DNA of 64,000 bases from assembly GCA_016927245.1 (NCBI GenBank), contig JAFGNA010000017.1, positions 1 to 64,000 on the forward strand, given 5' to 3'. Under the pieces are notes generated by a model. That model did not search any database. It was not told where the DNA came from and saw nothing but the letters and a program-made list of their open reading frames with translations. Each line of letters begins with the position of its first letter. Position 1 is the stretch's first letter. Of the stretch, positions 49,939-55,319 are shown piece after piece. The stretch is from Candidatus Woesearchaeota archaeon. Its GTDB lineage: Archaea; Nanobdellota; Nanobdellia; Woesearchaeales; WJKR01. Both the position numbers and the translations under genes were made by a program.

Positions 49939-50424
49939 TTAGCGGGTGCGCGGCATCTCTTGCAGGATGACTTCCTCGAAGCCTGGGCGGTGGCTGAGGA
50001 ATGCTTCTCTGAGCACGTCCTTGAGGACGAAGTATTCCTGTCGCTCCTCCACTTGCCGCTTGCCTGCCTCTTCGAAGAACTGGTCGAGGTCTCCTAGCCC
50101 GGTGAATACTGCCTCGACGAGGTAGTCGTAGCCGTTGTTGATCCTGAAGACAGAGTTCACGCGCGGGTGGTTGAGGAGGAATCGTTGGAATTCCTCTCGG
50201 CCGTCCTTGGCGACCTTGAAGAGGATGTGCGTCTTGAGGTCGAACCCGAGCTTTCGGAAGTCGAGGAGTGAGGTGTGCTTCTCGATGTAGTCCCCTTCGT
50301 ACTGTCGCAGCTTGTCGAAGATCGTGGAGACGGGTATGTTCGTCTTCCGGCTAATCCTGGTCAGCGATTCCCGGGCGTTGCGCCGGAAATGGCTGAGCAG
50401 CAGCAGTTCCTTCTCGCGGTCCAT
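49939..50424 (-). CDS. Lrp/AsnC-family transcriptional regulator
   Basis: 161 residues. The winged helix is LLLLSHFRRNARESLTRISR, then KTNIPVSTIFDKLRQYEGDY, and the RAM-like effector domain follows (GFDLKTHILFKVAKDGREEF, GYDYLVEAVFTGLGDLDQFF). It should bind DNA as an oligomer and respond to a small ligand, often an amino acid. An interrupted palindrome TGAACGGTTCA lies just upstream of its promoter. Confidence 0.88.
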   Translation of the reverse strand: MDREKELLLLSHFRRNARESLTRISRKTNIPVSTIFDKLRQYEGDYIEKHTSLLDFRKLGFDLKTHILFKVAKDGREEFQRFLLNHPRVNSVFRINNGYDYLVEAVFTGLGDLDQFFEEAGKRQVEERQEYFVLKDVLREAFLSHRPGFEEVILQEMPRTR

Positions 50425-50498: not shown

Positions 50499-50525
50499 TG
50501 AACGGTTCAGTGGTTTCCCTGAACC
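50499..50525. promoter_or_regulatory. Palindromic operator candidate upstream of the Lrp gene
   Basis: TGAACGGTTCA (50499-50509) is an 11-bp palindrome, followed by CTGAACC (50519-50525), which pairs with the GGTTCAG of the first. It is directly upstream of a TATA-like CATTTTTAGC for the minus-strand regulator. It fits an autoregulatory site, or a structured RNA. The remaining 180 bp to the next gene contain another GTTCAG/CTGAA pair near 50580-50594 and a TATA box near 50670. Confidence 0.4.
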
Positions 50526-50699
50526 AGCGCTTTGTGGGGTTGGTGGTTGCCGGGAGAATTGCTCTGCTGCGGGCCGGCTGTTCAGCGACCCTGAAACAAC
50601 ACCAAAAAACACATTCTTATACCACTATTAAGTGACTAATTGATGGGTTGTGTGATGCGGAGCGCAAAATCTTAAATACTCACGTTCCTACGAACCCGC

Positions 50700-52055
50700 A
50701 TGAAATGGTCGCTAGGCATCGCCGGCATCATCCTAGCAGGCATCTTGCTCTCGCTAGCGATCGCAGACCCACCAACCGCCCCTCAGGCACCAGGCACACC
50801 CCCATTCGCGAGCTGCACGCCATCAGACGAGGTGTGCGACGGCAAGGACAATGATTGTGACGGCCTCATCGACGCCGAGGACCCTGACTACACAGCGTTG
50901 CTCGCTGACAAGCAGGATGGCGTGTGCGAAGGGGCGGTGAAGTACTGCATCGCCGGCACCGCGATCGAGCCTGACTACGCCGCGTACAACAACAGCTACG
51001 AGGAGAAAGAAGAGTCGTGCAGTGACGGCAAGGATAACGATTGCGACGGCTACGTCGACGATGACGACTATAACTGCAGGAGCTCCGGCGGGGGCGGAGG
51101 CGGCGGAACCTATACGCCACCGAACCAAGAGGATGAAGAAGACGGGGGAGAGGAAGAGCAGGCGGCGCAAGTCACGGATGCTGCGTTGAACTGGACGTAC
51201 ACGTACACCATTGCGAGCACGTCCATCAATGAGTCAGGATTCTCCATCAAGCAATTGTTCGGCTCCCTGCCGCAGAACGAAGTCCCAGAGAACTCCTCAC
51301 TCCACAAGGATGGCTCACTCACTGGCGCCCCTGAGGGGTACGACGTGTACCAGTCATTCTCCTTCAGCGACGCTGCCCGGAGCACGGTGTTCGAGGAGCT
51401 CTTCGTCGTCTTCGGCGTTCCTGAGGCGTGGCTCGCCGAGCACGGCGCCGAGCAGGGGAACGTGACCGTGCTGTACCGTTCCCATGATGAGTGGGTTGCG
51501 GGCACGACGAGCTACCTGGAGGACGAGGGCCTGTACCAAGCAGTCCTGGTGAACGCGCCGCTCGACCAGCTCTTGGTCGCCGCTGCCCGGCCCGCCGCCA
51601 ACGGATCACTCGAGAAGGAGCAGGAACCAGCAGGCAACACTACAGGTATCGAAGAGGAAGGGCCTTCCCCTAACGTTCGGATTCCGCCTGCGCTCATCGC
51701 CCTCATCATCGTCGTCGTGCTCGGCGGGAGCGTCGGGGGGTTCTTCGTCGCGAGGAATAGGAAGCACGGCACGGCACGGCTCGGTGAGGGAGTGGTCCCT
51801 CTCGAGACCGGCCCTTCAGCGCTTGGTGGCGGCCACCCCTCGCCGGTCGTCACGGGGCAGTCATCCTCGCTTGCCAAGCCTGTTATCCCTGCGACGGCGG
51901 CTGATAACCCTCGTCTGCGCGAATTCATCAAGAGGAAGCGCGCAGAGGGAGTTCCTGACAAGGCTATCAGGGAGAGGCTACTCGCCGTCGGGTGGCAGCC
52001 CTCAGTGGTGGACCAGCACTTGAGCAAGGACTCATCATTGGTTCAGCAGCCCTGA
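50700..52055 (+). CDS. Surface protein with MopE-type repeats
   Basis: 451 residues. A signal helix (LGIAGIILAGILLSLAIA) is followed by two repeats, VCDGKDNDCDGLIDAEDPDY and CSDGKDNDCDGYVDDDDYNC, which are MopE/putative metal-binding motifs. A Gly-rich linker leads to a PGF-pre-PGF-like beta domain (FSIKQLFGSLPQNEVPENSS). One transmembrane helix (LIALIIVVVLGGSVGGFFVA) and a short cytoplasmic helix-hairpin (LREFIKRKRAEGVPDKAIRE) end the protein. A leaderless start fits TATA (TCTTAAATACTC) 25 bp upstream. Confidence 0.8.
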   Translation: MKWSLGIAGIILAGILLSLAIADPPTAPQAPGTPPFASCTPSDEVCDGKDNDCDGLIDAEDPDYTALLADKQDGVCEGAVKYCIAGTAIEPDYAAYNNSYEEKEESCSDGKDNDCDGYVDDDDYNCRSSGGGGGGGTYTPPNQEDEEDGGEEEQAAQVTDAALNWTYTYTIASTSINESGFSIKQLFGSLPQNEVPENSSLHKDGSLTGAPEGYDVYQSFSFSDAARSTVFEELFVVFGVPEAWLAEHGAEQGNVTVLYRSHDEWVAGTTSYLEDEGLYQAVLVNAPLDQLLVAAARPAANGSLEKEQEPAGNTTGIEEEGPSPNVRIPPALIALIIVVVLGGSVGGFFVARNRKHGTARLGEGVVPLETGPSALGGGHPSPVVTGQSSSLAKPVIPATAADNPRLREFIKRKRAEGVPDKAIRERLLAVGWQPSVVDQHLSKDSSLVQQP

Positions 52056-52088
52056 AACAAAACATATTTATAAGTGCGTCACTTCTCA

Positions 52089-53687
52089 GTGGCAAAGATG
52101 GCGGATGTCGGTGAGCAGTTACGGGAATTCTTCCACCAACACCCCTACGCGGAGCACGCCACGTCAGAGATCATCAAAGCAGTCTACCCCGATGAGTACG
52201 GGCGGATCAAGGCGGCGCTGCACGACCCCTTGACGGACCGGGAGTCACGGCTCGTCGCGAAGCGGCACAAAGGACAGCTCCACCGCAGAATCCTCTACCA
52301 TCTCAACCGGCTCGAGGCCGAAGGCGTCATCGCGGTCAGCCAGACGAAGGGGAAAGGCGAGAAGTGCTACGTGCTCAACCAACAGCAGGGACGCAAGCCT
52401 CAGCACCAGCGCATCCCGCACGCGCCCATGGGGCAGCCGCTCCTCAGGCTCGAGCACTACGTGCAGCGACGCGTCATCACCAGCTACGACCCTCGAGGGT
52501 GGCATAGCCGGCTGAACGCCGTGCTCCTCGACACCGTCGAGGAGGACACGGTAGAGAGCCTCCACGCGAGGATTGCCTCTGTCAGCAAGCACGTCAACGA
52601 CGTCATCGGCATCTACGCCGCCGAACAGCTCTTGGTCAAGGAAGACCTCGACCGGCTGAGCAAGCTGCTCAGGCAACTGGACATCGACACCCGCGATAAT
52701 GAGCGGTCAGTATGCCTTCTCATCGACCTCACCAAAGTATCGGAACTGAAGTACACCGAGGACTTCTTCGACGCTTTCGCCTTGCTCAACCCGGCGAACG
52801 TCAAGGTCGTGCTGTGCATCACCAAGAAGTTCCTCGACCGGCACCAGCGCTTGATGAAGCACATCATCAGGCGCTGCAGCGAGGCGAGCATCAAGCTCAA
52901 CCTGCATGACCTCGACGTGCACGAAGCGCCAATCATCGTCGGCAACGCAGGCGTGTACACCTTGCAGAAAGAGGAGTGGCGGACCTACTTGGACGAGGTC
53001 AGGGGGAAGACCATCGGGATCTGCGTGGGGCAGGTCAGCGTCGGCGTCGACGTGCATCGATTCTTCCAAGAGCGAAGGACTGACAAGGAGTTCAGGCAGT
53101 TCATCCTCAAGCTCGGCCAAGCATTAGTGGAGAGCAGCACCGAGCAGCGCAAGCGAGCGGACGCGGTGTTCGCGGACATCAACCGGTTGAACAAGAAGCC
53201 GCACGAGTTCTTCCGGTTCAGCACGAGCTATATCAGGTTGTGGAACTATGACTGGCAGGAGCGGGAGCGACCGCACTTCATCGACCTCCTCTCGACAGCC
53301 GCGGAGGAGCTCGCCGAGTTCTGCCGCGCGGAAGAGACTATTTTCAAGAGCTGCGGCATCCCCATCAGGTTCAAGGCGACCCTGGCGAGCATGTTCTCCA
53401 AGTTCGACCCTTCCTTCTGCTCTGAGCGCAGGTACAGCAAGGTCACCGTGCTGCACTCCCGGACGTTGCAAGATGAGGAGATGCGCAGCTTCATCAAGGC
53501 GCGGGAGCGCATCTTCAAGCTGTTCGACAGCAACGACCGCATCAGGATATTCAGGGCGACGCCGTGCGAGCCGGATGACGTCTTGGAGGAGATCAAAGAG
53601 ATACTCAAGCAGCACGACATCCCTAACCTCACCTATGACTTCGCGGAGCGGAAGGCGGACATGACCCTCAGCCAGTTCATGACGTGA
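52089..53687 (+). CDS. Winged-helix protein heading the ThyA-like operon
   Basis: 532 residues from the GTG at 52089 (MAKMADVGEQLREF); an ATG at 52098 is the alternative. A TATA element (CATATTTATAAG) is about 25 bp upstream. The N-terminus looks like a winged helix (HATSEIIKAVYPDEYGRIKA, QLHRRILYHLNRLEAEGVIA). The long middle reads as an alpha/beta domain with strands such as VCLLIDLTKVSEL, NVKVVLCITKKFLDRHQRLM and TIGICVGQVSVGVDV. No family recognised. It is coupled to the next gene (GTGA). Confidence 0.72.
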   Translation: MAKMADVGEQLREFFHQHPYAEHATSEIIKAVYPDEYGRIKAALHDPLTDRESRLVAKRHKGQLHRRILYHLNRLEAEGVIAVSQTKGKGEKCYVLNQQQGRKPQHQRIPHAPMGQPLLRLEHYVQRRVITSYDPRGWHSRLNAVLLDTVEEDTVESLHARIASVSKHVNDVIGIYAAEQLLVKEDLDRLSKLLRQLDIDTRDNERSVCLLIDLTKVSELKYTEDFFDAFALLNPANVKVVLCITKKFLDRHQRLMKHIIRRCSEASIKLNLHDLDVHEAPIIVGNAGVYTLQKEEWRTYLDEVRGKTIGICVGQVSVGVDVHRFFQERRTDKEFRQFILKLGQALVESSTEQRKRADAVFADINRLNKKPHEFFRFSTSYIRLWNYDWQERERPHFIDLLSTAAEELAEFCRAEETIFKSCGIPIRFKATLASMFSKFDPSFCSERRYSKVTVLHSRTLQDEEMRSFIKARERIFKLFDSNDRIRIFRATPCEPDDVLEEIKEILKQHDIPNLTYDFAERKADMTLSQFMT

Positions 53688-54343
53688 TAACCATGGAGCT
53701 CTCCTTACCGACAGCGATGGACGCGTGGAAGGCCGCGTTGAGCCACATCCTCGACTACGGAGAGAACTTCACCGATGATGATGGCAGGACGTGCCGCGAG
53801 GTGCTGAACCTCTCCGTGACTATCAAGCACCCTGACGTCGGGCTAGACGACCCCATCGACCGCATTAGGAAGAACGAGCGGTGGGTGTACCCGCCGAAGG
53901 ATGAGCTGATCGGGATCATCTTCAACCAGTGGGACTTGCCCTTGTATGATTACACGTACGGCAGCAGAATCTTCGGCTACCAGGAAGTGTTCGACCAGAT
54001 CAACGAGTACGTCATCCCGTTGCTGCGCAAGAATTCCACGTCGCGGCGGGCGTTCGCGCTCACCGTTGACCCGCTGAAGGACTTGCACCTCACGAACAGG
54101 AACGTGCCCGGCCTGATCAGCCTGCACTTCAAGGTCAAGGAAGGGAAGCTCTTGCTGACATCAGTGATACGGAGCAACGACTTCTTCATCGGTTGGCCTG
54201 CGAACGCGTACCAGCTCGGCTCCTTGCAGAAGTACATCGCTGACGAGCTCGAGCTCGGCGTAGGGGCGCTCGCCACGTATTCCATCTCCGCGCACGTGTT
54301 TGAGGAGCAACTAGAGGACATCCACGAGGTCTTGCAACGATGA
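53684..54343 (+). CDS. Thymidylate-synthase-fold protein lacking the catalytic Cys
   Basis: 219 residues, GTG start overlapping the previous stop. VKEGKLLLTSVIRSNDFFIG then GWPANAYQLGSLQKYIADEL and ATYSISAHVFEEQLEDI align with the ThyA dUMP-binding core (F-x-V-x-x-G-x-L...RS-D...G-P-N and Y-x-H). At the nucleophile position, where ThyA has P-C, this protein has VPGLISLHF: Cys is Gly. It is also shorter than ThyA (about 265). It cannot do normal ThyA chemistry; a nucleotide-binding or other role is likely. Confidence 0.75.
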   Translation: MITMELSLPTAMDAWKAALSHILDYGENFTDDDGRTCREVLNLSVTIKHPDVGLDDPIDRIRKNERWVYPPKDELIGIIFNQWDLPLYDYTYGSRIFGYQEVFDQINEYVIPLLRKNSTSRRAFALTVDPLKDLHLTNRNVPGLISLHFKVKEGKLLLTSVIRSNDFFIGWPANAYQLGSLQKYIADELELGVGALATYSISAHVFEEQLEDIHEVLQR

Positions 54344-54510
54344 ATGATGAGGAGTTGGTGAGGGCGTACGAGGAGGAGCTCAAAAGGAAGGATGAGGTCA
54401 TCGAGCGGCTGCGCGAGGAGAACGAGGTGCTGTTGCGCGCCTCGGTGAAGGCGGCGAAGGAGCGCTTGGAGCTCAAGGAGCTGTTGCGCGAGCTAGAAGG
54501 CAGAAGCTAA
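54340..54510 (+). CDS. 56-residue coiled-coil protein, third gene of ThyA-like operon
   Basis: Below the track cut-off. The ATG overlaps the previous TGA (ATGA). It reads MNDEELVRAYEEELKRKDEV and continues as one charged helix to ELEGRS. Such a short coil could dimerise or tether the other two proteins. Its stop overlaps that of the convergent 48-residue membrane gene. Confidence 0.6.
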   Translation: MNDEELVRAYEEELKRKDEVIERLREENEVLLRASVKAAKERLELKELLRELEGRS

Positions 54511-54832: not shown

Positions 54833-55129
54833 TTAGAATCCGTATTTCTTATGCGCAGCCTCTATGGAGAGTATTTCTAGTACTCGTACGAGTTTTTCTT
54901 TTTCGTCGATGATGTAGAAAGCAGTGTAGGTTCTTCCGATGTGGATCCTATAGACTTCTTCTCCCGTCACAACCAGCTTTTCTTTGTCACCAATACCCCT
55001 TCCCGGATATGGTTGTGAGAGTTTCTGCAAGTTCTTTTTGCATATAGAGATGCTTTTTTCGTCTAATGATTGCATGAAATCAACAGCCTCATCAGACAGC
55101 AATACGTCATAAGACAATTTTTTACACAT
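54833..55129 (-). CDS. RelE/ParE-type toxin
   Basis: 98 residues. LSYDVLLSDEAVDFMQSLDE and SICKKNLQKLSQPYPGRGIG, then VYRIHIGRTYTAFYIIDEKE and LVRVLEILSIEAAHKKYGF follow the RelE/ParE pattern (basic strand RxGxYRxxY, then a closing strand with RVLxIxHR-like end). It probably cleaves mRNA at the ribosome or poisons gyrase; sequence does not decide. It overlaps the antitoxin gene by 8 bp. AT-rich, inside element 1. Confidence 0.85.
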   Translation of the reverse strand: MCKKLSYDVLLSDEAVDFMQSLDEKSISICKKNLQKLSQPYPGRGIGDKEKLVVTGEEVYRIHIGRTYTAFYIIDEKEKLVRVLEILSIEAAHKKYGF

Positions 55130-55319
55130 CCTCTAATTTGCGCCAATTGCCTTTCCCAGCACGAGCGGCCTGAGCAAAACTAGCCAGTTCTCGCCTGTTA
55201 TGCGCCTGAACGAGTTCGCCAAGGAGCTCATCATAGGTCTGACCAGCTTCTTTTATCCGTCCGAGCTGTTTCCATCTGTCTTCCGAGACGGGGATCCGTT
55301 TCGTCATCATCTGTGCCAT
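55122..55319 (-). CDS. Antitoxin partner of the RelE-type toxin
   Basis: 65 residues. TKRIPVSEDRWKQLGRIKEA is the start of a ribbon-helix-helix-like or RelB/VapB-type DNA-binding part; the C-terminus (ELASFAQAARAGKGNWRKLE) would wrap the toxin. It is upstream of, and overlaps, the toxin gene, as antitoxins usually do. ATG at 55319; a Met three codons in is also possible. Confidence 0.8.
   Translation of the reverse strand: MAQMMTKRIPVSEDRWKQLGRIKEAGQTYDELLGELVQAHNRRELASFAQAARAGKGNWRKLEDV

Follow-up and report, generated by a model that had tools for sequence, protein, structure and literature searches.

Two coupled genes, here called A and B, lie in a 64,000-nucleotide stretch of the genome of a Candidatus Woesearchaeota archaeon (contig JAFGNA010000017.1, positions 1 to 64,000, hereafter the window). 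Gene A is predicted to encode a winged helix joined to a barrel of the ribonucleotide reductase (RNR) type, gene B encodes a protein with a thymidylate synthase (TS) fold, and the catalytic cysteine of these enzymes is conserved in neither. The favoured reading, held at slightly less than an even chance, is that A and B constitute an autoregulated (deoxy)nucleotide-sensing DNA-binding complex derived from two repurposed enzymes. A nucleotide-sensing switch is suggested because the proteins are Cys-less relatives of deoxynucleoside triphosphate (dNTP) enzymes, one of them has a DNA-binding domain, the genes are coupled, a regulator is their neighbour and an operator-like sequence is private to the locus. 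The folds, the loss of Cys, the gene pairing, the locus-specific operator and the presence of other RNR and TS enzymes were all computed. The operon and its putative promoter consist of the following elements:

52098..53687, + strand: gene A, 529 amino acids, predicted winged helix at about residues 1-95 and predicted RNR-fold barrel at about residues 112-529
53693..54343, + strand: gene B, TS-fold protein of 216 amino acids counted from ATG, recognised by PF00303, TIGR03283 and predicted fold
54340..54510, + strand: gene C, predicted coiled coil of 56 amino acids
52067..52072, + strand: TATA-box-like TTTATA, 26-31 nucleotides 5' of the gene A ATG

The sequence-only reading of this DNA described three genes overlapping by 4 base pairs (bp) each. 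Three packed open reading frames (ORFs) are present and B and C do overlap by 4 bp (ATGA), but A and B overlap (GTGA) only if B starts at GTG 53684, which gives 219 amino acids. The ATG at 53693, 5 bp past the stop of A, is preferred because the homologues begin there. The 56-residue ORF and its coiled coil, the latter by prediction, were described correctly. The position of TTTATA suggests that gene A is likely leaderless and starts from ATG 52098, not from GTG 52089.

Comparisons were made across 38 homologues, that is the window and 37 further loci from a scan of 84,980 GTDB genomes. Gene B matches Pfam PF00303 above the cut-off (8e-15) and the NCBIfam archaeal TS family TIGR03283 at 1.2e-38 with 132.7 bits, which is under the curated cut-off of 174.55. 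The AlphaFold2 model (predicted local distance difference test score, pLDDT, 92) has the TS fold, with MilA and thymidylate synthases as top PDB matches, and P139-G140 (in the motif VPG) aligns with the Pro-Cys of solved TSs. This agrees with the earlier description of a ThyA-like protein with VPG in place of the catalytic P-C. P139 is invariant, whereas position 140 is Gly in 24, Ser in 11, Ala in 3 and Cys in none of the 38 homologues; a missing Cys in relatives had been proposed as a check. No active ThyA was found at this place among the 38 operon relatives, an occurrence that had been named as counting against the claim. By comparison, PC is read in each of the 18 further TS-fold proteins sampled from the order, whether long two-domain or canonical. 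In a tree with some long branches a branch with support 72/91 separates the Cys-less set from the rest, and none of 500 shuffles gave equally tight clustering.

The suggestion that nucleotide-binding residues are retained (RSND-F-GWPAN, SRR, SAH) is also borne out, since the motifs SRR, RSND-F-GWPxN and SAH are near-invariant. Residues R118, R119, R160, S161, N162, D163, N171 and H201 are kept in about 90% or more of the homologues, and we take columns 118-119, 160-163, 171 and 201 to be the nucleotide-site residues of E. coli TS. Because position 140 is Gly, Ser or Ala in every homologue while the nucleotide-site residues are kept, selection would have preserved binding in the absence of the usual nucleophile. 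A viral origin was considered and rejected, in that gene A has no viral relative and the sole viral relative of gene B (L145) keeps the Cys, as does an Enterococcus phage match.

Gene A matches no family in Pfam, NCBIfam, PHROG or PADLOC, and a sequence search against PDB gave no significant match. The AlphaFold2 model built from the 38-sequence alignment (pLDDT 86.7) shows an N-terminal winged-helix arrangement and then ten strands as two sets of five. Below E 1e-6 this model has 14 PDB matches, every one an RNR and 13 of the anaerobic NrdD type; the best is NrdD 4con_A (1.2e-8), and T4 NrdD gives a template modelling (TM) score of 0.52. In a viral structure library the top four matches are RNRs, and a human herpesvirus 6 (HHV-6) protein is among the matches. 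The predicted likeness to NrdD is a 10-strand barrel across about 520 alignment columns, with strands ordered five and five and a finger-loop position between strands E and F, a topology as described for RNRs (PMC9669993). The label winged-helix protein given in the first reading is thus right for the N-terminus, as a prediction, but leaves out residues 112-529 or so, where an RNR-type barrel is predicted.

RNRs carry their radical Cys on the finger loop that connects strands E and F (PMC9669993, PMC4493059). In gene A this loop (about residues 272-306) has near-invariant P278, G282, G285 and Y287, and its highest Cys column reaches 6/38. Seven homologues have no Cys at all in residues 264-318, and the Cys found at 309/310 in 29/38 is in the strand after the loop. 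The loop tip of T. maritima NrdD is without Cys too, and there the SCCR motif is kept (PMC4493059). None of the 38 gene A homologues has a glycyl-radical motif of the RVxGY type or a Zn-ribbon/glycyl-radical domain, and none reaches more than 5 residues past the end of the window protein; the chains stop at the point where that domain would be expected to start. The conservation of polar residues (N140, N167, D168, D318, R380, W382, N383, E470, E498) and, in 32/38, of the Cys pair C409/C419 points to a remaining functional pocket.

The host has other enzymes for both reactions. A class II RNR gene is preceded by NrdR and followed by CobO, and ThyX is encoded elsewhere in the genome, where neither NrdD nor any TS-fold gene besides B was found. 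A true thyA or thyX elsewhere, which had been suggested as something to look for, is therefore represented by ThyX with no second ThyA. With class II RNR and ThyX in the host, A-B would not be the cell's dNTP supply, and gene A as the cell's own reductase was rejected for the same class II RNR. It is conceivable, though very unlikely, that B serves as the thymidylate synthase of the organism and A as its reductase, with another residue, for instance C34 of B, acting as the nucleophile. C34 follows R32 near the presumed phosphate site and is Cys in 31/38, but it is Ser or another residue in 7 and so is no universal replacement nucleophile. Nor does A have radical machinery. Among 12 further sampled genomes that encode either the pair or a B-like protein, 9 have ThyX and 2 more have canonical ThyA, thus 11/12 in addition to the host's own ThyX and class II RNR; the exception is G028, in which both ThyX and canonical ThyA were undetected.

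Some further details of these enzymes were noticed in the host and in the order. In L147:1201-4295 (host contig C5, about 104.7-107.8 kb) an archaeal NrdR gene immediately precedes those for a divergent class II RNR and a corrinoid adenosyltransferase. The ThyX is a tandem duplication, an ORF of 522 amino acids with two Thy1 stretches (L048:1513-3081, - strand, host contig C6), and similarly long ThyX ORFs occur in several relatives. A split anaerobic RNR is found in five genomes of the order (L097, L098, L099, L100 and L101), where the NrdD ORF breaks off halfway through the zinc motif. In these five a separate ORF of about 40-85 amino acids, overlapping or a few dozen bases downstream, bears the glycyl-radical segment CEVYSRVVGYxRPVxxWN and constitutes a stand-alone glycyl-radical subunit.

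The pairing of A and B is strict. Gene B is directly 3' of gene A in 37/37 further DPANN loci, so the operon is conserved as had been asked of it. The 37 loci are titled Woesearchaeota, Pacearchaeota, Nanoarchaeota or similar, with two titled as Euryarchaeota. The pair is found in 11 of 60 relatives of the order (one per family and one congener extra) besides the window genome and is an accessory but old module. A homologue of gene C occurs at the same place in 7/37 loci and only near the window's branch. Catalytic residues have been lost and A and B might hence be taken for decaying remnants, but the ORFs are intact, and pocket residues, pairing and operator are conserved in 38 divergent genomes; decay was rejected on this conservation and retains scarcely any credibility.

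In two loci the gene directly 3' of B encodes a GGDEF (diguanylate-cyclase-type) protein with a coiled-coil N-terminus (L068:5396-6052, L073:6350-6958), and in another a thymidylate-kinase-like ORF overlaps the end of gene B (L074:6226-6831).

On the upstream side of gene A the following features were found:

52041..52059, + strand: operator-like palindrome gTTCAGCAGCCCTGAAaca, just 5' of the gene A TATA box
50580..50598, + strand: second operator-like palindrome GTTCAGCGACCCTGAAACA, located upstream of the Lrp gene
50505..50524, + strand: third palindrome of this operator-like kind, GTTCAGTGGTTTCCCTGAAC, about 80 bp 5' of the Lrp/AsnC gene
49939..50424, - strand: divergent Lrp/AsnC-family regulator, PF01037 over the cut-off and Lrp/AsnC matches in PDB

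A TTCAG-N7-CTGAA palindrome (spacing 4-8) is present in 30/36 regions upstream of gene A, compared with 0.09 expected from first-order Markov simulation, and the spacing is exactly N7 in 27 of these regions. The strict form TTCAGN{4,8}CTGAAACA occurs twice in the 1.1 Mb host genome, both times at the locus. A looser form has four sites, three at the locus and the fourth within a predicted membrane-protein coding gene. The divergent Lrp/AsnC gene, which encodes both a helix-turn-helix and an AsnC ligand-binding domain, adjoins gene A in 29/37 loci. All eight sampled Lrp genes of A-B loci have the palindrome upstream, but 22 Lrp homologues from other places, 21 of them in genomes that lack the A-B pair, do not.

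Two proteins are candidates for binding the palindrome, and we lean towards the gene A protein over the Lrp protein. An improbable alternative is that A and B are nucleotide-binding proteins with another role, such as buffering, replication or antiviral control, and that only the Lrp protein uses the operator. The patchy, accessory spread (11/60 relatives of the order) would fit such a role, as would locus L061, where the operator sits with the Lrp gene. On the other hand, A has no PADLOC match and no viral relatives, there are no conserved defence neighbours at A-B loci, and in three loci (L080, L083, L085) the palindrome stays at gene A without a nearby Lrp gene.

In the proposed switch, A and B would be made together from coupled genes. 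Gene A would supply the winged-helix DNA-binding domain and an NrdD-like barrel devoid of radical machinery, and gene B a TS fold that keeps the nucleotide pocket and has lost the catalytic Cys. A (deoxy)nucleotide in the pocket of B, in the barrel of A or in both may change the state of an A-B complex, which would bind TTCAG-N7-CTGAA palindromes and thereby regulate both the operon that encodes it and the divergent Lrp/AsnC gene. The complex, its ligand, its DNA binding and any further targets are what we infer. Somewhat more tentative still is the evolutionary version, in which a transcription factor arose in DPANN archaea from an RNR barrel that gained a winged helix and lost radical chemistry, and serves with a nucleophile-less TS as a joint deoxynucleotide sensor.

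Several observations weigh against the sensor reading. The profile comparison of gene A with NrdD by HHalign was long and collinear, but its score of 21.1 fails to beat all unrelated controls (14-22), and neither NrdD nor class I/II RNR profiles were significant against unrelated and reversed controls. Because the scores are not above the controls, the homology of gene A to RNR is claimed from the predicted fold only, with a TM score of about 0.5. The strongly conserved polar residues and C409/C419 of gene A could mean catalysis. The operator could be bound by the Lrp/AsnC protein, since in L061 it has remained beside the Lrp gene at 2.9 kb from gene A, and L064 lacks both the Lrp gene and the palindrome. 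The palindrome was not found near RNR or ThyX genes, and a wider dNTP regulon was rejected, as other perfect palindromes in A-B genomes fall within coding or tRNA-like sequence.

The main rival, unlikely but to be taken seriously, is that A and B are a new nucleotide enzyme pair acting without the TS-type Cys, for example in flavin- or thiol-based modification, with Lrp as its dedicated regulator. Pocket residues are highly conserved in both proteins and C409/C419 is present in 32/38 A proteins. TS folds can carry other chemistry, because a TS-fold phage protein among the matches of B is deposited as a dCMP hydroxylase / flavin-dependent monooxygenase (9iqu, 9iqc). The thymidylate-kinase-like gene overlapping B in L074 fits an enzyme as well. 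Moreover, Lrp/AsnC proteins commonly regulate divergent metabolic genes. This explanation has to contend with the winged helix of A, which is of a DNA-binding type, with the lack of any conserved oxidoreductase, flavin or carrier partner beside A-B loci, and with the fact that the sole partner gene to be conserved encodes a transcription regulator. The sequence-only reading had left open a nucleotide-sensing regulator or a new enzyme; the regulator is better supported because gene A joins a reductase fold to a DNA-binding domain and conserves no catalytic Cys.

Comparisons with known systems show where A and B depart from them. Gene B shares with ThyA (PF00303; archaeal TIGR03283) the fold and the SRR, RSND, G-P-N and H nucleotide-site residues, but has Gly, Ser or Ala for Cys in 38/38, falls below the TIGR03283 cut-off and is always paired with gene A. 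Its best structural matches are cytidine monophosphate 5-hydroxymethylase MilA (5jnh, 5b6d) and the phage dCMP hydroxylase (9iqu/9iqc), in which the TS fold is used for other pyrimidine-nucleotide chemistry; identity to these is about 20%, and biosynthetic or DNA-modification partner genes do not adjoin gene B. Class III NrdD has in common with gene A the predicted 10-strand alpha/beta barrel with finger loop, whereas gene A has a winged helix and not an ATP-cone, no conserved finger-loop Cys and no Zn-ribbon/glycyl-radical domain. A precedent for a barrel kept after enzyme activity was lost is given by the betaherpesvirus homologues of the RNR large subunit (M45/UL45/HHV-6 type; PMC5469499, PMC11772975), which unlike A-B have a role in immune signalling, no DNA-binding domain and no TS partner. 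The proposed logic would be analogous to that of NrdR, the Zn-ribbon and ATP-cone repressor of RNR genes, as a nucleotide-sensing DNA-binding protein; A-B has neither of these domains, and the host's true NrdR is beside its class II RNR. The likeness to Lrp/AsnC regulators such as PH1519/FL11 is that of the divergent neighbour and not of A-B; members of this family bind short palindromes.

Other genes around the operon were also seen. A 451-amino-acid protein with MopE-like metal-binding motifs, membrane or secreted in appearance, is encoded at 50700-52055 between the Lrp gene and gene A and has palindromes on both flanks; in L049, from a congener, about 230 bp separate the Lrp gene from gene A. 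Just 3' of the operon (54833-55319, - strand) two small overlapping ORFs resemble, by eye only, a RelE-type toxin and its antitoxin.

A literature search (outside subscription journals and preprints) gave no description of the A or B protein. Searches of family libraries and literature found no system pairing Cys-less RNR-fold and TS-fold proteins with a DNA-binding domain, and to our knowledge no known system couples such proteins. The folds of A and B are known, but their combination and proposed use correspond to no known system. The predicted 17-bp operator and three small proteins make the A-B reading directly testable in vitro. If it is true, gene A would be a rare case of a prokaryotic RNR-fold protein put to a different use, and the pair would represent a nucleotide-sensing principle distinct from NrdR and from ATP-cone allostery, operating in archaea with reduced genomes that may rely on others for their nucleotides.
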